Position numbers and translations under genes: made by a program. From the NCBI RefSeq assembly GCF_011174675.1, contig NZ_JAANIG010000015.1:1-64000 (forward strand): DNA of 64,000 nt, given 5' to 3'. The notes beneath the pieces are model-generated. The model ran no database searches, was not told the origin of the DNA, and was given only the letters and a program-made list of their open reading frames with translations. The stretch comes from Perlabentimonas gracilis. Its GTDB lineage: Bacteria > Bacteroidota > Bacteroidia > Bacteroidales > Tenuifilaceae. Shown here piece by piece: positions 32,597 through 45,434 of the stretch (its first letter is position 1; the number at the start of each line of letters is the position of its first letter).

Positions 32597-33022
32597 TTAT
32601 TCCTCCTCCTCCTCAAGGTAGATAAGCATCACCACGCAGTCGTTCTCGCACTTCTCATTAAACTCAATGTAAAGGTGGTATGCACCAGTCTCGTTCACCT
32701 TAAGCCTCGATACCGAATGATTTTTTTCACTATCAACCTTGGTGTTAAGGGTTACTGGGTACTCCTCTTTATCGCTAACATAAAGTTTGATGTTCGATAT
32801 GGGGGTTGATGGGTTAACAAAATGCAAAGCGTACCTGATGTCTTTTCTTAGTATTATCGAGAACCTCGTTACATTACTGTCAGATTGTTTTACCTCGAAA
32901 TCCTTGAGGAATGCACCATCGTACTCTTTACTCCAGTCAATCTTTTCGCTAATAGCGCATTGCGCATTTGCTGTGGCTTGTAAAGCCAGCAGTAGTAAAA
33001 GCGTGCTTAGTATTGTTCTCAT
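32597..33022 (-). CDS. Small secreted protein of the ECF/FecR operon
   Basis: 141 residues. The signal peptide is MRTILSTLLLLLALQATANA, with cleavage before QCAIS. The mature protein is about 120 residues with beta-strand character and three cysteines (C22, and the C-x3-C pair in EKCENDCVVML). It ends in a run of five glutamates. I do not recognise the family. It begins 24 bases after the FecR-type gene on the same strand, so the three genes sigma, anti-sigma and this protein probably form one operon. Confidence 0.7.
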   Translation of the reverse strand: MRTILSTLLLLLALQATANAQCAISEKIDWSKEYDGAFLKDFEVKQSDSNVTRFSIILRKDIRYALHFVNPSTPISNIKLYVSDKEEYPVTLNTKVDSEKNHSVSRLKVNETGAYHLYIEFNEKCENDCVVMLIYLEEEEE

Positions 33023-33046
33023 AAGTGGTTGGTTAATGTTAGTAGT

Positions 33047-33916
33047 TTATTTTGATATAATTACCTTGCCATGCAGTCTTGTTGCCTTAATTGCAGTCTT
33101 GTCTTCAATTGCAGCCAAAATACTATCGAGCGATAGGTTGGTAAATGTGCCTGTAAAGCTTAGGTAGGCAATTGTATCATCTGCAATTTCAATATCTTGC
33201 CCATAGAACTTTTCTAAAACTTGTGTTACTTTAATCATTGGGGTGTTATCAAAAGCTATATTGCCAGTTTTCCACGCTAGGTAGTTGGGGTTGTTGTTTG
33301 ATGTAGCAAAAACTAGGCTGTTGGTTCGGCTAACCGAGCAGTAGTTGCCTTTGGTTACCAGTAGCGAGAGCCCTTGCCCCAGAATATTATCTGCTACCTT
33401 TAAGCTACCGCGGCTTACTGTTATATCAATATCATTATCGTTTGGGTAAGCTTTAATATTGAGTGCAGCTTTGTTTTCTATTGATATTATTGCATTGCCA
33501 GCCCTTAGGGTGTATGGTGCTTTGGCCGCACCTTCGGTTTCAAGGTAAATCTCACCATCAATATCCATGATGAACTCGCCGCTTTTGCGAACTGAGTAGG
33601 CTATTGAGCTGTTTTTATTTAGCCATACCCTACTGCCATTGGGCAACCGTTGTTCGGTTATGCTATCGGTTTGGTTCTGCAGTGCTATAACTTCTGGTGC
33701 AAAAACGTTGCAGTTTACTGCAAACACTATTATCAATGCTATTGCGGCTGCCGTTGAGGTGGCTATCAGAGCTATGCGCCTTAGCGAAGTTTTACTGTGG
33801 TTGTAGGTTTGTTGATAGTGGGTCCAACCCTTTTCGGGTGTCCACTGCACCTCTTTTGGAACCGTATTTAATTCGGCAACCTTATCTCTAAATATATTGT
33901 CAATTCTATTGTTCAT
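33047..33916 (-). CDS. FecR-type anti-sigma regulator
   Basis: 289 residues. A cytosolic N-terminus of about 45 residues is followed by one membrane helix (RIALIATSTAAAIALIIVFA). The periplasmic FecR domain has RLPNGSRVWLNKNSSIAY and FIMDIDGEIYLETE, and the C-terminal domain (DUF4974-like) covers the last 70 residues, from IKVTQVLEKFYGQDIEI on. It should hold the ECF sigma factor at the membrane and relay a signal from the outer membrane. No TonB-dependent transducer is encoded next to it. The sigma gene overlaps its start by 11 bases. Confidence 0.9.
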   Translation of the reverse strand: MNNRIDNIFRDKVAELNTVPKEVQWTPEKGWTHYQQTYNHSKTSLRRIALIATSTAAAIALIIVFAVNCNVFAPEVIALQNQTDSITEQRLPNGSRVWLNKNSSIAYSVRKSGEFIMDIDGEIYLETEGAAKAPYTLRAGNAIISIENKAALNIKAYPNDNDIDITVSRGSLKVADNILGQGLSLLVTKGNYCSVSRTNSLVFATSNNNPNYLAWKTGNIAFDNTPMIKVTQVLEKFYGQDIEIADDTIAYLSFTGTFTNLSLDSILAAIEDKTAIKATRLHGKVIISK

Positions 33917-34463
33917 GGCAAATCATTTTTTCTGATAATAATATCTGAAGCGCCCTGCGGGCACGCAGCAGGTAAACTCTCGAACTCGATTCCTCTATGC
34001 CCAACCTGATGGCAATTTCTTTATGGTTATACCCATCGATGACATAAAGATTAAATACGGTACGTTGCTCGCTGGGTAGTTCCTGTATCATTTTGTAGTA
34101 ATCTTCGGCTGTTAAGTTGGTGTCGGATTGTAATTCGGTTTGTGGCTCGTTATTGTCCATTTCGCTAATGCTGGTAAACTCATTCTTTTTGCGCAGCAGG
34201 GTAAGCGCCTCGTTTACTACTATTTTTTTCATCCAGCCCAAAAGCATTTGGTTGTTGGTGTAGGTAAAGGTGTGTATGTTCTTGAAAATACTATAGAACC
34301 CACTATTCACTATGCTTGCAGCATCCTGCTCGTTGTTTACATACCTGTATGCAACCCTAAATAGATGTGGTGAAAACATTTGGTAGAATTGATGCTGCGT
34401 TTTGGTGTTGTTACGTTTTAGCTGCTTTATCGTGTTGTTCATAAAAAGGCTTTGGGGTGACAT
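33906..34463 (-). CDS. ECF-type RNA polymerase sigma factor
   Basis: 185 residues from 34463, or 178 from the inner ATG at 34442 (MNNTIKQLKRNN), which gives the more usual ECF start. Region 2 is FYQMFSPHLFRVAYRYVNNEQDAASIVNSGFYSIF. Region 4 is LPSEQRTVFNLYVIDGYNHKEIAIRLGIEESSSRVYLLRARRAL, with the typical helix-turn-helix. There is no extra C-terminal domain. It is translationally coupled to the FecR-type anti-sigma gene. Confidence 0.93.
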   Translation of the reverse strand: MSPQSLFMNNTIKQLKRNNTKTQHQFYQMFSPHLFRVAYRYVNNEQDAASIVNSGFYSIFKNIHTFTYTNNQMLLGWMKKIVVNEALTLLRKKNEFTSISEMDNNEPQTELQSDTNLTAEDYYKMIQELPSEQRTVFNLYVIDGYNHKEIAIRLGIEESSSRVYLLRARRALQILLSEKMICHEQ

Positions 34464-34585
34464 ACTATAACCATAATGTGCAATTTGGTAGAAACGTTAC
34501 ATCGATTTGAAAAAAAATGAATAAAAATATGTGTCAAATAACTGAGTGCCGTCAGGTACAGTATATTCCGTAACTGACGGCACTA

Positions 34586-34839
34586 AGAAACTGTTTAAGT
34601 TTAAATTATAATTTTTTATACAGCCCCCGTAGGTGGCAAATAGCGATGGAAAAAATACTTTCTTGAAATCTTAGCGCCTCGTAGAGTGCGCAATAGATAT
34701 TTTTTCTTTATTGCACCCTCTCTGGGGTGCTTCGTTAAATTTTTACTAGTTTTCAATCGCTATTTGCCCCTGCCTAAAGGCCAGGCAGGCTCTAACGAGG
34801 GCGGCTGTTAATTGAGATTTCAAAATTTAAACAGCTTCT
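34586..34839. repeat. MITE-like imperfect palindromic element
   Basis: The terminal inverted repeats are AGAAACTGTTTAA (34586-34598) and TTAAACAGCTTCT (34827-34839), 12 of 13 matching. A second, stronger pair lies inside: GGCAAATAGCGATGGAAAA (34635-34653) and TTTTCAATCGCTATTTGCC (34750-34768), 18 of 19 matching. CAGCC and GGCTG lie between the two pairs. The centre holds a small hairpin, GCACCC-6-GGGTGC (34713-34730). The right arm alone carries an extra ~21-bp palindrome at 34769-34789. There is no transposase gene, so if mobile it depends on one elsewhere. Confidence 0.65.
34769..34789. repeat. Small palindromic insertion in the inverted repeat's right arm
   Basis: A 21-bp palindrome, CCTGCCT ... 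AGGCAGG, interrupts one arm of the 34586-34839 element. The opposite arm, read in reverse complement, passes directly from CGCTATTTGCC to ACCTACGGGGG, so the insert is missing there. It resembles the insertions at 37903, 38119 and 38978 in the repeat array, in the opposite orientation. Confidence 0.65.
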
Positions 34840-34946
34840 AAAAAGTTTTTTTTGCATCCTTTTTTCACTGTATGCAAAAAGTAACGCTTACATCTTAATA
34901 TAATGTTGCAATCTTTTTTGCGGCTTAGCGCCTTAGCGTTAATTAT

Positions 34947-37880
34947 TTAGTTAACTATTATCTCATCAATAAAAATAAAAGCATTGCCGCCAGCCCCAAG
35001 GTGCCATTTGGGTATTTTGCCAAAATTTGTGGCTTTCACTTTTACGTACTGCCCCTTGGTGTTTACCTTTTTACCTAAATCCTGTTGCTGAATCTCGTAA
35101 TCGTCGAAAGGAATTTTGTTTTTGATATTTGCAACCTGAGTAAAGTTTTCCCCATCGTTTGATACGTAAAATGTTACATCCTTGGGCATCCAAATCCATG
35201 AGCGTATGTCCTGCACAAAGCCAGCGCCCATATAGCTAATGGGCTGTACCTTGCCCAAATCTAACACAGCCTCAAAATCGGTTGCTTGGTATCCCATCCA
35301 GCCGCCCAAGCGCCAGTTCGATGCGCCTCGCACGCCATCAATAAGTGCTTCGGGGCCTCCGGCGTGGTAGCTGGGGCTCCATTTCGATTTAATATCAATG
35401 CTCCGATTAATATCAATTTTCACAAACTCGGCTTGCACTGGGAAACTATAGCCCACACCATCCTTGTAAGTTACTGTCTTTAGGGTTGTTGTACCTATTA
35501 GCATAAGCGGCTCCTTATATTTGTTTGATTGTTTGGTTGGCGTTTTGCCGTCGAGGGTATAGTACACCTCACAATCGGGTATGATAGTGCCAATGGTAAC
35601 CTGCATTGTATCGCGAATGCGACGTTCTTCGGACTGGATATAGGGTACGGGTAAAAGCAATTCGTCTGTAATGGTGGTTTTGGGAATATCATTATCGTTT
35701 GTTCCCCAGTTCGTATTGGGATTTTTCCCCATCTCGAAGTGCAGATGCCCTCCGCTCATAATATCGCTATGCGAAATGTATGATTTGGTGTAGTCCTTGC
35801 TGTTTAGCTTTACCGATTGGATATAGAAATTCTTTTGTGAAACGTTGCTGGCCGTAATTTTAAACGTGTTGCCATTCTCCAAATTAATCTCCATTTCTGG
35901 AAACCAAGGGGTGCCAATTGTGTAGTCGGGTTGCCCCGGGCTAACAGGATAGAAACCCATTGCGCTCATGATTAGCCATGCCGACATCTGACCGCAGTCC
36001 TCATTGCCGCTAAGCCCATCGGGCTTATGGGTGTACAACTCGTCCATAATTTGACGAACACGCTGCTGCGTTTTCCATGGTTGATTAAGGTAGTTGTATA
36101 GGTAGGCCATATGGTGACTGGGCTCGTTGCCGTGGGCATATTGTCCAATTAATCCAGAAATGTCCTTTTGATCTTTTCCGGTGATTTTACTGTCGGTCTC
36201 GAACATCTCGTCGAGCTTAGTGGCAAGGTTCTCTTTACCACCGTGTAGTTTGTACAATCCAGTAATATCCTGCGGAACGTAAAAACTGTACTGCCATGAG
36301 TTGGCCTCAGTAAAGTGCCAATCTACCGTGGTGGGATTGAAAGGCGTGAGCCAACCGCCATTAAGGCGTGGGCGCATAAATCCTGTTGTGGGGTCGAAGA
36401 TGTTTTTGTAGAACTGTGCCCTGTGGATATACTCGCGGTAAATATCGTTCTTGCCCATCTGTTTTGCCATAAGGGCAATACACCAGTCGTTGTAGGCGTA
36501 CTCTAGGGTTTTCGATATAGACTCGTGCTCCTTATCGCCGGGGATATGGCCGTATTTTTGGTATGCTCCCAAGCCAAAATGCTCACGCGTTGCGCTGTGA
36601 ATCATTGCCTGCAGCGCTTTATCCGTATCAAAGCCATAAATTCCCTTAGTGTAGGCATCGGCAATTACCGATATGGCGTGGTTGCCAATCATGCAGTAGG
36701 TTTCGTTGGCGGCCAGCTCCCAAATGGGGAGCAGTCCACCCTTCTGGTACATATCGAGCATTACGTTGATAAAGTCCTTTGTGCGCTCCTGCTCAATAAT
36801 AGTCATAAGCGGATGCCACGTGCGGTAGGTGTCCCAAAGGGAAAATACGGTGTAGTTGGTAAACCCTTCGGCGGTGTGGATCTGCTTGTCCATTCCACGA
36901 TACCTGTTGTCCACATCCATAAAGGTGTTGGGTTGCAGAAATGCATGGTACAGGGCAGTGTAGAAAACTGTTTTTTGCTCATCGCAACTGCCCGAAACAA
37001 TTATTTTGCTTAGCTCATTATTCCATGCATTGTATGCTTTTTGCTTCACCTCATCGAATCCCCAACCGGGCAATTCTGCTTTTAGATTTTTGTGCGCACC
37101 ATCGGCATCCACAGCCGAAAGGGCAACCTTTACCTCTATCGCCTCATCTTTTAAGGTTTCAAATCCAACGAAAGCCTTTATGTTTGTGCCTTGCGCTTTA
37201 TTGCTATCAATAAAACTATCATCCTTTGCAATGCCTTTGCGCACGAATGGCTTGGAGAATTCCATATGGAAATACCAAACCATATCGTTGGCCCAGTTGG
37301 TTGAGCGGCGCATTCCGCGAATCTCGGTATCGCTAATAATCTCTATCCACGAGTCGGTTACACGGTCTCTATGCTCTAGGTCGATAATTATATTTGCCTC
37401 TGATGTTTCAGGAAAGGTGTAACGATGGTAACCCACACGTGTTGTGGTGGTGAGTTCGGCCAAAACTTCGGGCTTATCGAGGAAAACGCTGTAATAGCCA
37501 GCTTTGGCACTTTCATTCTCCTTCTGAAAAGGTGATAAATACTCAGTATTTACTATTGTTGGCTCGCCAACAATGGGCATTAGCAGGATATCGCCATAAT
37601 CGCCCACGCCCGTTCCGTTGAGGGCGGTATGGGTAAAGCCGTAGATTACCGAGTCGGTGTAGTGATAACCCGATGCGCCATCCCAGCCACCAAGGCGGGT
37701 ATCGGGACTAAGCTGTACCATTCCAAATGGCATAGTGGCACCGGGGTAGGTGTGCCCATGGGCATCGGTACCGATAAAGGGATTTACAAAATCGGCAGGG
37801 TTTTCCACTCTGCTTTCGGTTGTGCAGGCTGTGGCCAGAAGTGCTATGCACAATACTTGTAGTTTGATTTTTGTTTTCAT
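34947..37880 (-). CDS. GH92 exo-alpha-mannosidase lipoprotein with C-terminal carbohydrate-binding modules
   Basis: 977 residues. A lipobox-like ATAC (C19) suggests surface anchoring. The GH92 catalytic core is complete: NPFIGTDAHGHTYPGATMPFG near residue 33, the catalytic acid E586 in AHGNEPSHH, and the acidic motif with D628 in GLSGNEDCGQMSAW. GH92 enzymes are calcium-dependent inverting exo-alpha-mannosidases. After the core come a CHB_HEX-type Ig-like module (CEVYYTLDGKTPT, about 770-830) and an F5/8-type-C-like module to the end. The same module pair ends the GH20 enzyme at 55010. It is the last gene of the mannoside operon, separated from GH2 by the repeat array. Confidence 0.93.
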   Translation of the reverse strand: MKTKIKLQVLCIALLATACTTESRVENPADFVNPFIGTDAHGHTYPGATMPFGMVQLSPDTRLGGWDGASGYHYTDSVIYGFTHTALNGTGVGDYGDILLMPIVGEPTIVNTEYLSPFQKENESAKAGYYSVFLDKPEVLAELTTTTRVGYHRYTFPETSEANIIIDLEHRDRVTDSWIEIISDTEIRGMRRSTNWANDMVWYFHMEFSKPFVRKGIAKDDSFIDSNKAQGTNIKAFVGFETLKDEAIEVKVALSAVDADGAHKNLKAELPGWGFDEVKQKAYNAWNNELSKIIVSGSCDEQKTVFYTALYHAFLQPNTFMDVDNRYRGMDKQIHTAEGFTNYTVFSLWDTYRTWHPLMTIIEQERTKDFINVMLDMYQKGGLLPIWELAANETYCMIGNHAISVIADAYTKGIYGFDTDKALQAMIHSATREHFGLGAYQKYGHIPGDKEHESISKTLEYAYNDWCIALMAKQMGKNDIYREYIHRAQFYKNIFDPTTGFMRPRLNGGWLTPFNPTTVDWHFTEANSWQYSFYVPQDITGLYKLHGGKENLATKLDEMFETDSKITGKDQKDISGLIGQYAHGNEPSHHMAYLYNYLNQPWKTQQRVRQIMDELYTHKPDGLSGNEDCGQMSAWLIMSAMGFYPVSPGQPDYTIGTPWFPEMEINLENGNTFKITASNVSQKNFYIQSVKLNSKDYTKSYISHSDIMSGGHLHFEMGKNPNTNWGTNDNDIPKTTITDELLLPVPYIQSEERRIRDTMQVTIGTIIPDCEVYYTLDGKTPTKQSNKYKEPLMLIGTTTLKTVTYKDGVGYSFPVQAEFVKIDINRSIDIKSKWSPSYHAGGPEALIDGVRGASNWRLGGWMGYQATDFEAVLDLGKVQPISYMGAGFVQDIRSWIWMPKDVTFYVSNDGENFTQVANIKNKIPFDDYEIQQQDLGKKVNTKGQYVKVKATNFGKIPKWHLGAGGNAFIFIDEIIVN

Positions 37881-37902
37881 TTCAGTTTTTTTTTGGCACG
37901 CG

Positions 37903-37924
37903 CCTGCCTGCTGGCAAAGGCAGG
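37903..37924. repeat. Palindromic insertion in array unit U1
   Basis: A 22-bp palindrome (CCTGCC...GGCAGG) lies between GGCACGCG and GAGCAC. In U2 and U5 these two flanks are joined directly as GGCACGCGGAGCAC, so U2 and U5 are empty sites for the same insertion. Confidence 0.75.
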
Positions 37925-38118
37925 GAGCACTCGGATTTTAAAGATTTAAAACGATTTTTTTTCTTTCTTATCTGCGTTCATCCTCAAAATCAGCGTCATC
38001 AGCGTTCTATGTTTTTGGCACGCGGAGCACGCGGATCTGTGAGATCTTAAACGGATTAATTAGCTACGCTTTTATCATTTCAATCAGTGTCATCAGCGTT
38101 CTATTTTTTTTGCACGCG

Positions 38119-38140
38119 TCTGTCTGCTGGCAAAGGCAGG
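38119..38140. repeat. Palindromic insertion in array unit U3
   Basis: A 22-bp copy of the same palindrome, with two T-for-C changes in the left arm (TCTGTC), lies between GCACGCG and GATAACGCGG. U4 shows the empty form, GCACGCAGATAACGCGG. Confidence 0.72.
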
Positions 38141-38260
38141 GATAACGCGGATTTTAAAGATTATAGACGGATTTATCACCGGCACTCTTATCAGCGTATA
38201 TCATTTTAATCGGCATCATCGGCGTTCTATTCTCTTAGTTTTCATATCATTTTTTTTAGC

Positions 38261-38323
38261 ACGCAGATAACGCGGATTTGTGAGATTTAAAACGGATTTT
38301 TTTCCTTCCTTTCTTATCTGCGT
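38261..38323. repeat. Hairpin of array unit U4
   Basis: ACGCAGATAA (38261-38270) is the exact reverse complement of TTATCTGCGT (38314-38323), with a loop of 43 bases. The same perfect 10-bp pairs occur in U8 (39120-39129 with 39173-39182) and U10 (39348-39357 with 39401-39410), and with one mismatch in U6. Confidence 0.7.
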
Positions 38324-38444
38324 ACATCCTCAAAATCAGCGTCATCAGCGTTCTATTTTTTTTGGCACGCGGAGCACTCGGATTTTAAAGATTATATACG
38401 GATTTATATCAGCGTATATCATTTTAATCGGCATCATCGGCGTT

Positions 38445-38849
38445 CTATTTCTTAGGATTAATATCTGGTTTCCTTACGTTTGAAAATGCAATCCTTTTAA
38501 ATTCGGGTTTCTTTCCAAAGTTCAGTAGAAGTCCTACCTCAATATTTGTTGCTTTTAAGTAGTTGAGAAGTTGACACTCGTCGTCTTTGCGAATAAATTC
38601 ATTGGCCTTGATCTCAATTATTACAGAGTTCTCAACAATTAAGTCGGCAAAGTATTTACCTACTTTGTGGCTTTTGTAAAAAACATCAATGGGGTATTGG
38701 TCATCAAAATAAACTCCTCGTTCATCCAATTCGATGGCCATGGCAGTTTCGTATACCTTTTCAAGAAATCCATAACCAAGCGTGTTGTAAACATCATAAA
38801 ATACTCCAATTATAATCTCAGTTAGGTCTTTGTGTAATAGTTTTGTCAT
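38445..38849 (-). CDS. GxxExxY protein, predicted PD-(D/E)XK nuclease-fold (PDDEXK_3)
   Basis: 134 residues. The family motif G-x-x-E-x-x-Y is G27-FL-E30-KV-Y33. Further on, D69 (YFADLIV) and the E79-x-K81 motif (IIEIKANEF) fit the PD-(D/E)XK nuclease core, with Q93 and Y97 (ECQLLNYLKA) as the usual helix residues. Catalytic activity has not been shown for this family, to my knowledge. The gene fits exactly between repeat units: U6 begins 17 bases upstream of the ATG, and the stop codon TAG is formed by the CTA within the conserved end of U5. It lies inside the mannoside operon but has no obvious link to sugar use. Confidence 0.9.
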   Translation of the reverse strand: MTKLLHKDLTEIIIGVFYDVYNTLGYGFLEKVYETAMAIELDERGVYFDDQYPIDVFYKSHKVGKYFADLIVENSVIIEIKANEFIRKDDECQLLNYLKATNIEVGLLLNFGKKPEFKRIAFSNVRKPDINPKK

Positions 38850-38866
38850 ATGCTTTCGATTTATTT

Positions 38867-39443
38867 GGCACGCAGATAACGCGGATTTTAAAGATTATAG
38901 ACGGATTTATCACCGGTACTCTTATCAGCGTATATCATTTTAATCTGCGTCATCAGCGTTCTGTTTTTTTGCACGCGCCTGCCTGCCTGGCAAAGGCAGG
39001 GATCACGCGGATTTGTGAGATTTAAAACGGATTTATTTCCTTTCTTTCTTATCTGCGTACATACTTAAGGTCAGCGTCATCAGCGTTCTATTCTCTTAGT
39101 TTTCATATCATTTTCTTGCACGCAGATAACGTGGATCTATTAGATTTAAAACGGATTTATTCCCTTTCATTCTTATCTGCGTACATCCTCAAAATCAGCG
39201 TCATCAGCGTTCTATTTTTTTAGCATCCGGATAACGCGGATTTTAAAGATTTTAGACGGATATATCACCGGTACTCTTATCTGCGTTCATCCTTAAGATC
39301 AGCGTCATCAGCGTTCTATTCTCTTTGTTTTCGTATCATTTTCTTGCACGCAGATAACGCGGATCTATTAGATTTAAAACGGATTTATTCCCTTTCTTTC
39401 TTATCTGCGTACATCCTTAAGATCGGCGTCATCGGCGTTCTAT
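38867..39443. repeat. Right half of a ten-unit repeat array (units U6-U10)
   Basis: Five more units in the same orientation: U6 38867-38964, U7 38971-39091, U8 39118-39215, U9 39223-39319, U10 39346-39443. U6, U8, U9 and U10 are 97-98 bp; U7 is 121 bp because of its palindromic insertion. Gaps alternate between T-runs (U6-U7, U8-U9) and a ~26-base spacer, TCTCTTAGTTTTCATATCAT followed by TTTCTT (U7-U8, and with two changes U9-U10). Forms A and B are mixed (A: U6, U9; B: U7, U8, U10). U10 ends exactly at the stop codon of the GH2 gene (39443-39445). Confidence 0.92.
38978..39000. repeat. Palindromic insertion in array unit U7
   Basis: A 23-bp copy of the palindrome (CCTGCC...GGCAGG, one base longer in the loop side) lies between GCACGCG and GATCACGCGG. 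It has the same position and orientation as the copies in U1 and U3. Confidence 0.72.
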
Positions 39444-41977
39444 TACAAATGCATAATTCTAAGTTGTTCTTTAAATGTTTCAATTGGTAAATCGGTTTTG
39501 CAGAATATTGTTACTTCCTCGTTTGGCAATATATGCATAAAGTTATCGCTAAATTTTGCGTGGCTATGGGTTAGGTACAGCTGAACGTGGGCAGCGAAGG
39601 TTTTGGAGGTTAATCTAATGTTGAACCCATCTTTTACTTCCTCAATTTTTGTTTCGACAGCTGCCGTTGGTAGTTCAAGCATACCAAGTGGAGTTAGAAA
39701 CTTGCGGTTTACGTACTGTTTACCATTGCCATCGATAAATCTCGCCTCCAGCATCACCCTTTCCTTTTTAATATCAGCAAAATACGAATCTGATTTTTCT
39801 GAAATTATAGGTAATGATGTGTTGGCTTTGGCTGTGATCTCTTTGGATAACAGCGTCTTTATATTGCCATCAAAATCAATTACAATAATTTCCAAAGTTC
39901 CTTCGGTATCTTCTATTTTATCGGATACTAGGTGAACCTCAAATTGATTGTTGTAATCAATTGCCGAAACCAGAATATCGGAGTAAAGTTCTCGAACCTT
40001 GTACTGCAGGGCTTTCCAGTTGCCAAACACATCGGTTCCGCTCCAGCTGGTAACGGGCCAACAATCGTTTAGTTGCCAGTATAGCGTGCCCATGCAGTAG
40101 GGCATTGCGCTGCGCTGCGCCTCAATGGCCAGTCCAATTCCCTTGGCTTGCACCAGCTGACTTAGGTAAATAAACTCATCCAGCGTTTCAGCGTATAGCC
40201 CTTCCATCTGAAGGTACGAGTTGATGGTTTGGTAACCCGTAGGATGCTTCTGGTGACATTGTAGGGTAGGGGAGAATAGGTAATCCTGTTCCTCGGATTG
40301 GAATGTGCGAATGGTCGAAATGGTGGGCATTGCCTGCAGACCAAACTCGCTGGCAAAGCGTGGTACCTTCTCAATGTATGTTTCAACGGGTTGTACTCCC
40401 CACCAAACACCCCAGTAGTGTGAGCTGCCGTGGGTTAAACTTTTCTCCCGGCCCCAGCCGTAAAGCGGCGAGGTGGATAGGTAGTATTGTTGTGGGTCGT
40501 GTTCCTTAACGGCATTGGGTAGCACATTATGAAAAACATTTTTGTAACCTGCCCAAATAGATGTTGAATCTTTCTTTGAAATATTGTGAGCCTTTTGCCA
40601 GCCCCAGTTATGCCAACCCTCATCAACCTCGTTGTTGCCACACCAAAGAGCTATGTTGGAGTGGTTGCGTAGCCTTTTTACCTGTTGTATGGCTTCCTGC
40701 TTTACGTTTTCAACGTAATCGTCGTTGCCCGGATACATTGCGCAGGCAAACATAAAATCTTGCCAAACCAGAATGCCATTGCGGTTGCAAAGCTCGTAAA
40801 AGATATCATCCTCGTAAACCCCGCCACCCCATACGCGTAGCATATTCATATTCGACTCAACGGCTCGGGCAATAATATCCTCATAATTTTGCTGGGTAAC
40901 CTTGGTAACAAACGAGTGCTGTGGGATGTAGTTGGCGCCCTTCATATATACCCTATGGCCGTTTAGCTCAACGTATAGGGCTTGACCGTGCTCGTCGTCC
41001 TCAAGAACTGTTCTGAGGGTTCTAACTCCAAAGGGAATTTCTTTTGTATGGTTATAACCCGATTCGGTTATTAGCTCAATGCGCAAATCGTAAATATGTG
41101 ATTCGCCCAGGCCATTACTCCACCAGAGTTTTGGGTTGTTGATTTTAAACGCGATGCTGTGGCTATGATTGACTGATTGGAGACTGATTGCTTGATTGGT
41201 TAGTTGTGTGTTAGTCTTGGAATCAATTACTCGGATTGTAGCATTTTCGTTGATTTCAGATTCTACCCAGTAGGTTAAGCCGATGGTAGCCGCTTGTTCT
41301 GTAATATTTTTGGTATAGATGTGGAAATCGGTTTGGCGATGGGTGTTCCAAGCCTCAAGGTAAACCGGTTTGTGTATTCCTGCAGTGATAAATCGAGGGC
41401 CCCAGTCCCAACCAAAATGGTATGCCGCCTTGCGCGCAAAGTTCCATTTGCCGCCGGGTAGGGGATAGCCCAGAGCTAAGGAATCCTCGAAAAATTTGTT
41501 TAATGCCGATTGGAAATGAACTTCCAAAAGGTTGTTACCAACTTTGAGTAGTTCCCTACAATTGATTTCCCACTTGCGGTGCATATTGTTGGCCTGCAGT
41601 ATTTTTTGACCGTTAAGCGTTACATTGGCGTAGGTGTCTAATCCTTCAAATACAAGTTTGATGTTATTGTTTGCAAGCAGGATGGAATCGACGGTAAACT
41701 GAGCTTTGTAAATCCAATCCCGCTCGCCAATCCATTGTAGCTTCTCCTCGTTACAGCCGTAGAATGGGTTATCGATAACGCCATTGTTTCTTAAATCGGT
41801 GTGGACTGTTCCAGGTACGTTGGCCGGATACCAATCGGGTTCACTGCTATCTCGGAAAATCCAGTTGGTATTCAACTCCATCCTTTCAACCAGTTCCCTT
41901 CTAGGCTCATCCTTGCAAGATGATAATATGAGCATTGCAACGGTAAAAAAAGAAATGATAGTAAGGCGATATCTCAT
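39443..41977 (-). CDS. GH2 beta-mannosidase lipoprotein
   Basis: 844 residues. The lipobox is LSSC (C21). The sugar-binding domain (LVFEGLDTYANVTLNGQKI, about 107-125) is followed by the Ig-like domain and the TIM barrel. The acid/base is E450 in WCGNNEVDEGW and the nucleophile is E544 in FASEFGLQAMP; the W-C-G-N-N-E form is typical of beta-mannosidases rather than beta-galactosidases. It would remove non-reducing beta-mannose, for example the Man-beta-1,4-GlcNAc core link of N-glycans, at the cell surface or in the periplasm. The upstream GH92 gene ends 13 bases before it. Its stop codon directly touches repeat unit U10. Confidence 0.94.
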   Translation of the reverse strand: MRYRLTIISFFTVAMLILSSCKDEPRRELVERMELNTNWIFRDSSEPDWYPANVPGTVHTDLRNNGVIDNPFYGCNEEKLQWIGERDWIYKAQFTVDSILLANNNIKLVFEGLDTYANVTLNGQKILQANNMHRKWEINCRELLKVGNNLLEVHFQSALNKFFEDSLALGYPLPGGKWNFARKAAYHFGWDWGPRFITAGIHKPVYLEAWNTHRQTDFHIYTKNITEQAATIGLTYWVESEINENATIRVIDSKTNTQLTNQAISLQSVNHSHSIAFKINNPKLWWSNGLGESHIYDLRIELITESGYNHTKEIPFGVRTLRTVLEDDEHGQALYVELNGHRVYMKGANYIPQHSFVTKVTQQNYEDIIARAVESNMNMLRVWGGGVYEDDIFYELCNRNGILVWQDFMFACAMYPGNDDYVENVKQEAIQQVKRLRNHSNIALWCGNNEVDEGWHNWGWQKAHNISKKDSTSIWAGYKNVFHNVLPNAVKEHDPQQYYLSTSPLYGWGREKSLTHGSSHYWGVWWGVQPVETYIEKVPRFASEFGLQAMPTISTIRTFQSEEQDYLFSPTLQCHQKHPTGYQTINSYLQMEGLYAETLDEFIYLSQLVQAKGIGLAIEAQRSAMPYCMGTLYWQLNDCWPVTSWSGTDVFGNWKALQYKVRELYSDILVSAIDYNNQFEVHLVSDKIEDTEGTLEIIVIDFDGNIKTLLSKEITAKANTSLPIISEKSDSYFADIKKERVMLEARFIDGNGKQYVNRKFLTPLGMLELPTAAVETKIEEVKDGFNIRLTSKTFAAHVQLYLTHSHAKFSDNFMHILPNEEVTIFCKTDLPIETFKEQLRIMHL

Positions 41978-41990
41978 TACACGATTGTTT

Positions 41991-44300
41991 TTAGTAATGC
42001 TTTATGCTCCAGCGCGATCGGGCACCCATGTAGAATGTCAGCTCGCCACCAGCCAAAATATCATAATGACTTATTTTATTGTTGATTATATCTTGCCCGT
42101 TTAGCTTTGCTTTTAGCACATATTTATTGTCGGGCGACTGGTTAACTGCTCTAATTCTAAAGGTTTTGCCATTCTCAAGGTTTATTGTGGCCGATTTTAC
42201 CAATGGGCTGCCCAGCTCGTAGTATTCAGAGCCCGGTGCAACAGGGTAAAAGCCTAGTGCGCTAAAAATATACCAAGCGCTCATTTGACCAAGGTCGTCG
42301 TTTCCGCTAAGGCCATCGGGGGTTGGCTTGTACTTGGTGTCGATAATCAATCTAACCGTTTCCTGCGTTTTCCATGGATTTGCGGTCCAGTTGTATAGAT
42401 ATGGAATATGGTGCGATGGCTCGTTGCCATGCACGTAGTTCCCAATTATTCCCTCGCGGGTTATATCCTCGGTATTCTCGAAATACTTATCGGGTAGGTG
42501 CATATTAAAAACCGAGTCGAGGTAAACCTCCAGCTCTCTTTGGCCGCCCAGCAGCTCCATTAGCCCTTCCACATCGTGAGGCACATAAAGCGAGTAGTTC
42601 CACGCATTACCTTCAATAAAGCCTTGTCCGTGGGTGTCGAGCACATCAAAATCCTCTTTAAATGTTCCATCCAATAGGCGTGGTCGCATAAAACCTATGG
42701 ATTTATCGAAAACATTTCGATAGTTCTGTGCGCGCTGCGTAAATTCTTTGTAGATATTTTCGTTGCCTAGCTTTTTGGCCATTTGGGCTATTGTCCAATC
42801 GTCGTAGGCAAACTCCAGGTTTTTCGATACCGAATTGTTGGAGATATCCTCTGGAACATAGCCAAGCTTAATGTAATGATCCAATCCATCGTACCAGCCA
42901 TTGCTGGCGGTTTGTACGGCAGCATCGAGGGCAAACTGTGTGTCAAAATTGGCATTACCCTTCACAATGGCATCGGCAAGGAGCGAAACGGAGTGGTAGC
43001 CAATCATACACCAGTTCTCGTTGGCGTAGTGGCTCCATACGGGCAGCATTTTATGTACGCTTTGCGAGTAGTGCGCCAGCATTGATTTTATCATATCCAT
43101 ATTGCGATTGGGCTGAATCACATTGAAAAGCGGATGTAACGCCCTGTAGGTATCCCAAAGCGAGAAGGTGGTGTAGTTGGTGAAACCCTCAGCGGTGTGA
43201 ATATTCTGGTCGAGTCCTTTGTACTGACCATCAACATCCATATAAACGGTTGGGCCAAGGAAGGAGTGGTAGAGCGAGGTGTAGAAGTTAACCTTATCGT
43301 CGTCGGTTAGGGTTTCTACCTCAATCCTTGACAGCTCCTTATTCCATAAATTTTGCCCTTCCCGCACCACTCGATCGAAGTCCCAGTGCGGCGTTTCTGC
43401 AGCAAGGTTTTTTAAAGCGCCGTAGGTGCTAACTGGCGATATGGCCACCTTCATTAAAATTTGCTCATTGTTATCGGTTTCAAAATCGAAATGACACTTT
43501 ATTTCACGCCCAGCATTTTCGGGGAAATTGCTGTTCTGGTCGAATCGTCTCCAAAATCCACGGTAAATCAGTTCCTCACTGTTGACTAATCCATAGGATT
43601 TGAAAGGCTTTGAAAACGATATGGCGAAATACACCGTGCGGGTGCGTGCCCAGCCGTGGGTTTGCCGGTAACCAGTTATCAGGGTGTCGTTTTCGGCGCG
43701 GATAAATGTCCATACATTTTTACCGGGGTAGTTATAAATACCATGGGTTAAATCAACAATTATATGTGCATCGGACGATTTTGGAAACGTGTAACGATGC
43801 ATTCCCACCCGGGTTGTGGTGGTTAGCTCTGCGTTGATACTATAATCGCTTAGGTGAACCTGATAGTAGTTTGGCTGCGCCGACTCATTATCGTGGCTAA
43901 AGCTAGAGCGGTAGCCCGAGTCGGGATTTGTTGAAGTGCCCGGGTTTAGCCTAAGTTCACCCGTAGTGGGCATCACCAGGATATCGCCCAAGTCGGAGTG
44001 GCCTGTACCGCTAAAATGGGTGTGGCTAAAACCAACAATGGTGCTATCGTCGTACTGGTAACCTGCGCAGTAATCGTAAACCTTTGGATTGTACTTGCCA
44101 TCCAAGGAATAGGGTATGGTGTCGGTATCGGGGCTTAGCTGAACCGAACCAAATGGAACTGTTGCACCTGGAAAGGTGTGTCCCATTCGCTGGGTGCCAA
44201 TAAATGGGTTTACCCAATGAATTGGTTCCTTCTCCAATTGCTGCGCTACTGAAGAAACAGAAGTGCTTACAAACAGTATGATGGCTAAGTGTTTAATCAT
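41991..44300 (-). CDS. GH92 exo-alpha-mannosidase
   Basis: 769 residues. It has a signal peptide (VSSVAQ) and no lipobox, so it should be periplasmic. The core is complete: NPFIGTQRMGHTFPGATVPFG near residue 31, the acid E627 in YVHGNEPSHH, and D668/D669 in SGNDDLGQMSAWYIFSALGFYPV. Unlike the 34947 paralogue it has no extra C-terminal modules, so it may act on smaller imported oligosaccharides. It lies between the kinase gene (27 bases) and the GH2 gene (13 bases). Confidence 0.95.
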   Translation of the reverse strand: MIKHLAIILFVSTSVSSVAQQLEKEPIHWVNPFIGTQRMGHTFPGATVPFGSVQLSPDTDTIPYSLDGKYNPKVYDYCAGYQYDDSTIVGFSHTHFSGTGHSDLGDILVMPTTGELRLNPGTSTNPDSGYRSSFSHDNESAQPNYYQVHLSDYSINAELTTTTRVGMHRYTFPKSSDAHIIVDLTHGIYNYPGKNVWTFIRAENDTLITGYRQTHGWARTRTVYFAISFSKPFKSYGLVNSEELIYRGFWRRFDQNSNFPENAGREIKCHFDFETDNNEQILMKVAISPVSTYGALKNLAAETPHWDFDRVVREGQNLWNKELSRIEVETLTDDDKVNFYTSLYHSFLGPTVYMDVDGQYKGLDQNIHTAEGFTNYTTFSLWDTYRALHPLFNVIQPNRNMDMIKSMLAHYSQSVHKMLPVWSHYANENWCMIGYHSVSLLADAIVKGNANFDTQFALDAAVQTASNGWYDGLDHYIKLGYVPEDISNNSVSKNLEFAYDDWTIAQMAKKLGNENIYKEFTQRAQNYRNVFDKSIGFMRPRLLDGTFKEDFDVLDTHGQGFIEGNAWNYSLYVPHDVEGLMELLGGQRELEVYLDSVFNMHLPDKYFENTEDITREGIIGNYVHGNEPSHHIPYLYNWTANPWKTQETVRLIIDTKYKPTPDGLSGNDDLGQMSAWYIFSALGFYPVAPGSEYYELGSPLVKSATINLENGKTFRIRAVNQSPDNKYVLKAKLNGQDIINNKISHYDILAGGELTFYMGARSRWSIKHY

Positions 44301-44327
44301 AGGTTTCGATTCTCGATTTCAAGCAGA

Positions 44328-45434
44328 TTATAGCTTGCCAATAGCCTTAAGTGCAAAAGCGTAGGCCCCAATGGCCACGGCTTGGCTGGTACCAAGTCGA
44401 GTGCGACCAACAGCCACGTTTTTTTGCCAGCTATAGGGAACCTCCATGTTAACATTGGGAACCTTTACCATCTTTGGGTTATTTTGATAAAATGCATTGC
44501 TATCCTCATAACTTTCCAGATTAAAGGCTTTAACCTCAAGCCTATTGATATTCTGGCCATTGTAGGTAGATATTTTCCCGTTGAGCTGCGCCATCATCGA
44601 TGGGGCAAATAGGGGATAGGCATTTGAAAGACCTCCGCCAATTACCACATTGCAATCGAGGAGTGTAATGGCGTTGGCCAGCACATCGCCAAGGGTTTTG
44701 CCAAGCCTCTCGAAGCTAGCACTGGCGGCTAATGCGTCACCTTTTTGGTAGCCCAGGGCAATGTCGAAAATTTCTTTGGGGGTTAGCTTTTTATCCTCTA
44801 TGTTGCCAGTTATTTCTGAATACACACGCTGAACAGCCCGGATGCTGATGCTCTCCTCTGCAAAAACGCTTGGTTCAAGGGCATTGCGGGTTACCCAAAT
44901 CTCGGCGCCAGCCGAGTTATCGCCTAGGTACAGCTCACCATTGTGCACTATACCCGCTCCAAACCCTGTGCCCAGCGTAATGCCCAGCAGATTTTTATAC
45001 CTTTTAGAGATGTTGTGGCTTTCCAACTCATTGTTAATCTCGGGTAACATTCCGGCTATGGCCTCGCCATAGGCAAACAGATCGCCATCGTTATTTATAA
45101 ACACGGGAATTTCAAACACACCCTCGAGCATTGGTCCAAGGGCAATTCCTCCCCTGAAAGCTGGCAGATTCCCCAAATCGCCAATAACCCCGTTGGGGTA
45201 GTCGGCTGGGCCAGGGAATGCGAAGCTAATCGCTGAAGGGTCCTCCTTGAGCATCGACCTAACCTCCTTAAATCCATTTACAATGCTACTTAAGCAAAGG
45301 TTTAGGTCGTGACCGTTTGCGGGGTAGGCAATGGGGTTTACTATCTCCTTACCTCCTTTTATTGCCGAAAAAACAAAGTTTGTTCCCCCAGCATCGAGGG
45401 TCATTACTACCTCTTTTCGTTTGTTAAGTTCCAT
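44328..45434 (-). CDS. ROK-family sugar kinase
   Basis: 368 residues. The N-terminal phosphate loop is TLDAGGTNFVFSAIKGG (about 12-28), and GITLGTGFGAGIVHNGELYLG matches the ROK core. After it, the zinc-binding motif of most ROK kinases (H and three Cys in CxCGxxGCxE) is missing: the sequence reads DNSAGAEIWVTRNALEPSVFAEE. Such zinc-free ROK proteins occur in this phylum. The operon context suggests it phosphorylates mannose or a related hexose. It is joined to the MFS gene by 9 bases and to GH92 by 27. Confidence 0.87.
   Translation of the reverse strand: MELNKRKEVVMTLDAGGTNFVFSAIKGGKEIVNPIAYPANGHDLNLCLSSIVNGFKEVRSMLKEDPSAISFAFPGPADYPNGVIGDLGNLPAFRGGIALGPMLEGVFEIPVFINNDGDLFAYGEAIAGMLPEINNELESHNISKRYKNLLGITLGTGFGAGIVHNGELYLGDNSAGAEIWVTRNALEPSVFAEESISIRAVQRVYSEITGNIEDKKLTPKEIFDIALGYQKGDALAASASFERLGKTLGDVLANAITLLDCNVVIGGGLSNAYPLFAPSMMAQLNGKISTYNGQNINRLEVKAFNLESYEDSNAFYQNNPKMVKVPNVNMEVPYSWQKNVAVGRTRLGTSQAVAIGAYAFALKAIGKL

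Follow-up and report, generated by a model that had tools for sequence, protein, structure and literature searches.

The window analysed here, the whole 64,000-nucleotide stretch of a Perlabentimonas gracilis contig, contains a repeat array that occupies the junction of a GH2 and a GH92 gene and brackets a small gene of the GxxExxY family, and the locus raises the question of whether repeat and protein together make up a single system, mobile or able to maintain itself and akin to REP elements, as a first-pass annotation had proposed. The reading that we prefer, and to which we assign a probability of roughly 55%, is that gene and units are one genetic element system, in which an autonomous nuclease-in-hairpin is accompanied by dependent gene-less hairpins.

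The array (positions 37888-39443; Table 1) is made up of ten units, each an imperfect hairpin about 90-125 nt long; all have the same orientation, and the gene is preceded and followed by five of them. A covariance model of the unit, with 88-120 bits for the ten copies, confirmed the arrangement that had first been described. That description was right about the array but missed the imperfect hairpin, the position of the gene inside a hairpin in most relatives, and the dependence of the motif on the protein clade. In the orientation of the gene, the unit reads TAGAACGCTGATGACGCTGAT..TACGCAGAT..loop..ATCCGTTTTAAATCT..AATCCGCGTTATCTGCGTGCC, with ACGCNGAT iterated in the left arm and its inverse in the right arm, and the folding z of the units ranges from -0.8 to -3.9. 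The gene had been placed between U5 and U6 without any bases left downstream, which fits and can now be sharpened, as U5 itself supplies the stop codon of the gene (TAG of TAGAACGC). The rest of the 4.37-Mb genome holds weak solo hairpins, the best scoring 59 bits in the covariance model, and blastn with the consensus unit returned nine array units and five weak partial matches elsewhere. Two unit subfamilies alternate along the array, and alpha-beta dimers that are 84-88% identical are duplicated inside it (38140-38357, 38875-39092 and 39229-39444), so that the unit count owes part to local segmental duplication. The units had no match in Rfam, and no terminator-like site was found in the array. 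Three units have a second palindrome, of the CCTGCC..GGCAGG type, within their right arm (37900-37925 in U1, 38115-38141 in U3 and 38976-39003 in U7), and a solo unit at G000:C42 (L013) carries comparable insertions in its loop. The surroundings of the array form a cluster of the polysaccharide-utilisation type (window positions 32597-45434), with two GH92 genes, the GH2 gene, an ECF sigma factor with its FecR anti-sigma factor and, as judged by eye, a ROK-like kinase.

Table 1. Positions of the repeat units, the GxxExxY gene and the bordering host genes in the window.
Feature	Position	Strand	Remarks and basis
GH92 gene, host	34947..37880	-	downstream of array; insertion boundary; Pfam
Unit U1	37892..38010	-	alpha; nested palindrome; adjoins GH92 start
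Unit U2	38014..38104	-	divergent, shortened
Unit U3	38109..38230	-	beta; nested palindrome
Unit U4	38256..38356	-	alpha
Unit U5	38362..38448	-	beta, with shortened loop; TAG serves as GxxExxY stop codon
GxxExxY / PDDEXK_3 gene	38445..38849	-	134 aa, intact; TIGR04256, PF13366, alignments, AlphaFold
Unit U6	38862..38964	-	beta; directly upstream of GxxExxY gene
Unit U7	38967..39091	-	alpha; nested CCTGCC..GGCAGG palindrome in right arm
Unit U8	39112..39215	-	alpha
Unit U9	39220..39319	-	alpha/beta mixed
Unit U10	39343..39443	-	alpha; array start, directly behind GH2 stop codon
GH2 beta-mannosidase-like gene, host	39443..41977	-	upstream of array; insertion boundary; Pfam; junction empty in G001

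The assignment of the protein to the GxxExxY (PDDEXK_3) family and to the PD-(D/E)XK fold, already made from the sequence, holds. The protein matches TIGR04256 (E 4.5e-39, 133 bits against a curated cut-off of 35) and PF13366 (E 1.1e-41, 142 bits against 22) over its full length, and it has G27, E30, Y33, D69, E79 and K81. Its D69, E79-x-K81 and Q93-x3-Y97 correspond to the D, E-x-K and Q-x3-Y that are invariant in an alignment of 38 sequences, and residue 90, almost invariably H in relatives, is D. The AlphaFold model (pLDDT 90.8; order H-H-E-E-E-H-E-E) has the alpha-beta-beta-beta-alpha-beta core with the catalytic D and E-x-K of the PD-(D/E)XK fold, and its nearest PDB matches are Cas4 SSO0001, lambda-type exonucleases and the archaeal Holliday-junction resolvase Hjc, a likeness at the level of the fold only; a search of the PDB by sequence yielded no informative match. 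Based on this model, the product is a predicted PD-(D/E)XK nuclease with intact catalytic residues. PF13366 was the only domain detected in the window gene, and no HuH domain was present; PADLOC gave only weak matches, to PDC-S02 (E 5e-4) and Cas4 (E 0.01). Orthologues at fixed sites have dN/dS values of 0.03-0.13, and the GxxExxY protein is therefore kept under purifying selection. PF13366 is carried by 151 of the 296 Bacteroidota genomes sampled, with one to thirteen copies detected per genome by the searches, and in the genome of the window two further GxxExxY genes are each bracketed by inverted motifs that are iterated but differ from those of the array. There was no GxxExxY match in 2.9 M viral contigs or 50,697 phages, and matches were found in 8 of 72,556 plasmids; phages and plasmids are thus not the main carriers of the genes, and an explanation as their cargo was rejected.

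For 112 unique Bacteroidota GxxExxY genes, the 150-nt 5' flank was compared with the reverse complement of the 3' flank, and 355 neighbour genes as well as mismatched GxxExxY flank pairs served as controls. A flank match score of at least 16 was reached by 72% of the GxxExxY genes, compared to 7.9% of the neighbour genes and 8.9% of the mismatched pairs (medians 18, 10 and 11; MWU p about 1e-35). The motif repeated in the arms is CRC[AGT]RA with T or G as the next base, and within the same motif class the arms of an element match each other better than they match those of other elements (T class, 18.5 versus 12, p 2e-12; G class, 18 versus 11, p 3e-22); a second set of 79 named loci, all of one motif class, gave flank scores of 19 versus 13. 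At least four motif copies are found in the flanks of 78% of the GxxExxY genes and of 8% of neighbouring genes. Direct-repeat flanks as in the window occur at 27 of the 112 genes, and most relatives have the gene inside a hairpin. The arms lie at a median distance of 24 nt from the ATG and 3 nt from the stop codon. The nearest protein relative of the window gene, which comes from another family and shares 64% identity (L136), likewise lies between two full units, which begin with TAGAAC, and at L045 a GxxExxY gene is located in the loop of a window-type unit. Two near-identical GxxExxY genes were observed in tandem, about 740 bp apart and with the same flanking hairpins, at L112 (G118:C4), and this pair is a recent duplication of the whole element.

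The last base of the motif follows the protein phylogeny. In clade A (VYNxLGxGFLEK), to which the window protein belongs, all 30 classifiable proteins have T, and 61 of 66 classifiable proteins of the larger clade, the VHxxLGPGLLES group, have G; on a tree of 114 proteins the motif class changes 3 times, as compared with 30.5 times in shuffles, and none of 500 shuffles was as low. Single members from Sphingomonas, Fusobacteriota, Treponema and Gemmatirosa, with matching motifs as judged by eye, stand outside these statistics. The agreement between motif and clade is explained as well by co-descent of gene and arms as by recognition, and both mean that they are one genetic unit. Other motifs were also encountered: at L034, L035 and L044, a GxxExxY clade (AMKVHSTLGNGFQEVIY) is found beside ORFs that resemble the HsdR N-terminal domain, and the arms iterate AATCCTAAAAATCC / GTAAATCA. 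A further clade (EVY/EVH..G(S/C/N)GFLE; L033, L110, L115 and L387) has arms of the CCACGGAA, CACAGAT or CACGGAT type, which suggests a third motif class ending in A.

We also counted triple-motif clusters in the 296 Bacteroidota genomes, 151 with and 145 without PF13366. With gene-adjacent arms included, which contribute to the association at the genome level, PF13366-positive genomes account for 977 of 1003 G-class and 279 of 304 T-class clusters, and at least five G clusters are present in 50 of the 151 genomes with PF13366 versus 1 of the 145 without it. The association of G clusters with gene presence persists when stratified by family (OR 10.5, p 1e-6), T clusters are predicted by the presence of clade A (OR 12, p 4e-10), and a reversed-pattern control was near zero in most genomes. 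Gene-adjacent arms cannot account for a genome such as G051, with 4 GxxExxY genes and 100 clusters, and most of the G-class clusters appear to be hairpins that lack the gene. In two Flavobacterium-type genomes, 20 cluster loci are devoid of a GxxExxY ORF; these clusters are mostly intergenic, and several are clean hairpins. Some solo units occur in genomes without the cognate gene. In Flavobacterium-type genomes, some G-class hairpins enclose a T-class hairpin in their loop region (L396, L398, L401 and L404), which gives the impression that insertion into hairpin loops is favoured. The first-pass annotation had considered that gene and repeat might be mere neighbours, with repeats unrelated to GxxExxY genes or with such genes mostly lacking repeats. 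Neither is the case, as clusters are concentrated in gene-bearing genomes, also within family strata, and the large majority of the genes have inverted flanks and multiple motif copies. A chance neighbourhood was thus ruled out, and the idea of one REP-comparable system is supported, as far as sequences can tell, by the excess of inverted flanks and by a motif that tracks the clade.

The insertion sites add different states of the same junctions. At the mutA-mutB junction, followed in 20 genomes, several genomes are empty (3-32 bp), some have GxxExxY elements with differing motifs, G005 has a truncated GxxExxY element, and G021 and G009 have gene-less hairpins, of which the one in G021 retains the start codon and a few codons. 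In G010 and G026, the same junction holds an IVP gene between other inverted repeats. The search for an empty GH2-GH92 site, which had been proposed as a check, was successful: the two genes are joined by 16 bp in G001 (L197), and the junction is also empty in G011. In Flavobacterium, an element at bioF-bioD starts at the bioF stop codon and provides a new one. No target-site duplication was definable at mutA-mutB, bioF-bioD or GH2-GH92, as the relatives are too diverged. Many elements occupy fixed sites and have been passed on by vertical descent.

The enzyme and its repeats resemble a single unit that spreads or maintains itself. In our model, the autonomous form would be a DNA hairpin of iterated heptamer/octamer motifs (the above CRC[AGT]RA with T or G), and the gene of the small predicted PD-(D/E)XK nuclease would be enclosed by the loop or flanked by two full units. 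Hairpins without the gene would be internal-deletion or solo derivatives that need the cognate gene in the genome, as REPINs need RAYT. We infer that the GxxExxY protein acts on its arms. The nuclease would recognise the motif of its own clade, probably as a hairpin/cruciform or as clustered sites, and may nick or cut there; host repair would then copy the element into new intergenic places or amplify it locally. The array in the window could accordingly be pictured as one autonomous copy, inserted behind the GH2 stop codon, around which gene-less units were amplified locally. A wider claim, to which we give somewhat less than an even chance, is that GxxExxY proteins drive a widespread and undescribed class of bacterial hairpin elements, consisting of a self-contained nuclease-in-hairpin replicator and gene-less satellites. 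Such elements would be PD-(D/E)XK-based and independent of REP/RAYT and all transposases, the protein clade would read the last base of the iterated motif, and selection on the protein would have kept them for long. In the open-access literature we found no paper that links GxxExxY to repeats, and a subscription paper could contain one. The motif-clade rule predicts a DNA substrate for each GxxExxY protein, and the function can be tested with short synthetic hairpins. If the model is confirmed, many hairpin repeats that lie between genes, a large class, would find an explanation.

The chief rival of this model is a capture of ORFs by hairpins. The hairpins would be moved by host recombination or by a trans-acting enzyme, small ORF families such as GxxExxY and the IVP four-helix bundle would have been captured in their loops, and GxxExxY would serve repair, defence or another function. 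Loci of PF05635, the 23S IVP four-helix bundle, that are located outside rRNA (L323-L352) have inverted arms in 83% of 23 cases, as compared with 8% of mismatched pairs. An ORF in a hairpin therefore need not be its mobiliser, because this unrelated, non-nuclease family shows the same inverted-arm layout with unrelated motifs. The IVP arms iterate quite different motifs, such as GATAAGCGACAA and GGAAGTTAGA, and G000 has 7 such IVP genes. That the mutA-mutB junction houses both ORF families in different genomes and that T-class hairpins are nested in G-class loops also agrees with captured passengers, and the purifying selection at fixed sites is what would be expected of a host-serving gene. 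However, a motif class that tracks the GxxExxY clade and a repeat number that depends on the gene are unexpected for a random passenger, and we regard this explanation as unlikely, albeit worth serious attention.

Considerably less probable is an element that functions at the RNA level like the intervening sequences (IVS) of 23S rRNA. Its arms would pair in the operon transcript around the looped-out ORF and undergo processing, by RNase III for instance. The architecture of inverted repeats around an ORF is that of an IVS (PMC4990558), the folding z of the units goes down to -3.9, and the elements are mostly co-directional in operons. This last excess is modest, however, with co-directional neighbours on both sides of 46 of 59 elements (78%) and of 206 of 314 controls (66%), and it is too weak to lean on. 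Moreover, no rRNA is involved, Rfam gave no match, and the arm mismatches are not enriched in sense-strand G-U wobbles (148 sense versus 186 antisense), so that this wobble asymmetry, as a signature of the IVS kind, was not found in the arms of GxxExxY elements. Equally improbable is an ordinary host gene whose arms act as operators or as elements of mRNA stability or termination, with the array as a tandem duplication only: arms that abut the ORF and segmental duplications in the array would fit, but dozens of gene-less copies elsewhere (as in G051), an array without a terminator-like site, and several insertion states at mutA-mutB do not.

The nuclease-in-hairpin system that we favour shares single traits with several known systems. 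According to the model, the PD-(D/E)XK fold with its Q-x3-Y motif resembles Cas4, lambda exonuclease and Hjc, but GxxExxY is a stand-alone protein of 125-134 aa, and the locus has no CRISPR or phage recombination context. In homing endonuclease genes, including that of the PD-(D/E)XK enzyme I-Ssp6803I, a small nuclease is the only gene of the element. GxxExxY, as a predicted small PD-(D/E)XK-type nuclease, is likewise the sole gene, but its elements have no intron or intein, bring their own repeated arms, and use many intergenic sites rather than one conserved target. As with MITEs and IS elements, gene-less internal-deletion copies exist beside gene-bearing ones with shared inverted ends (G021 at mutA-mutB), but there is no DDE, HuH, tyrosine or serine transposase, and the arms are iterated motifs.

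In the 23S rRNA IVS, an ORF (S23/IVP, PF05635) is enclosed by terminal inverted repeats, which fold into a stem-loop, and these sequences have been termed selfish (PMC4990558). The placement of an ORF between inverted repeats is shared, whereas GxxExxY elements are found at junctions of protein-coding operons, outside rRNA, and encode a different protein; the recurrence of this layout at IVP genes may be relevant to how the IVS arose, a question of long standing. The closest parallel is REP/REPIN-RAYT (TnpA_REP, REPtron), in which the repeats depend on the gene and have evolved together with the enzyme groups (PMC8266576, PMC3116915, PMC2817692). In both cases, a single-copy-like gene is accompanied by a population of cognate imperfect palindromes that depends on it, and GxxExxY proteins, like RAYTs, are kept under selection. 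Unlike in REPIN-RAYT, whose defining feature is an HuH Y1 transposase, the protein here belongs to PD-(D/E)XK (PF13366), the arms iterate 7-8-mers, the gene is often inside the hairpin, and the repeats are mostly in the tens instead of hundreds. On inspection of the unit consensus, no GTAG/CGTC tag was noticed. The GxxExxY gene and its hairpins can thus be read as a REPtron-like pair that is built on an unrelated nuclease and, if confirmed, this would be a second, independently evolved enzyme type among REP-like repeat systems.
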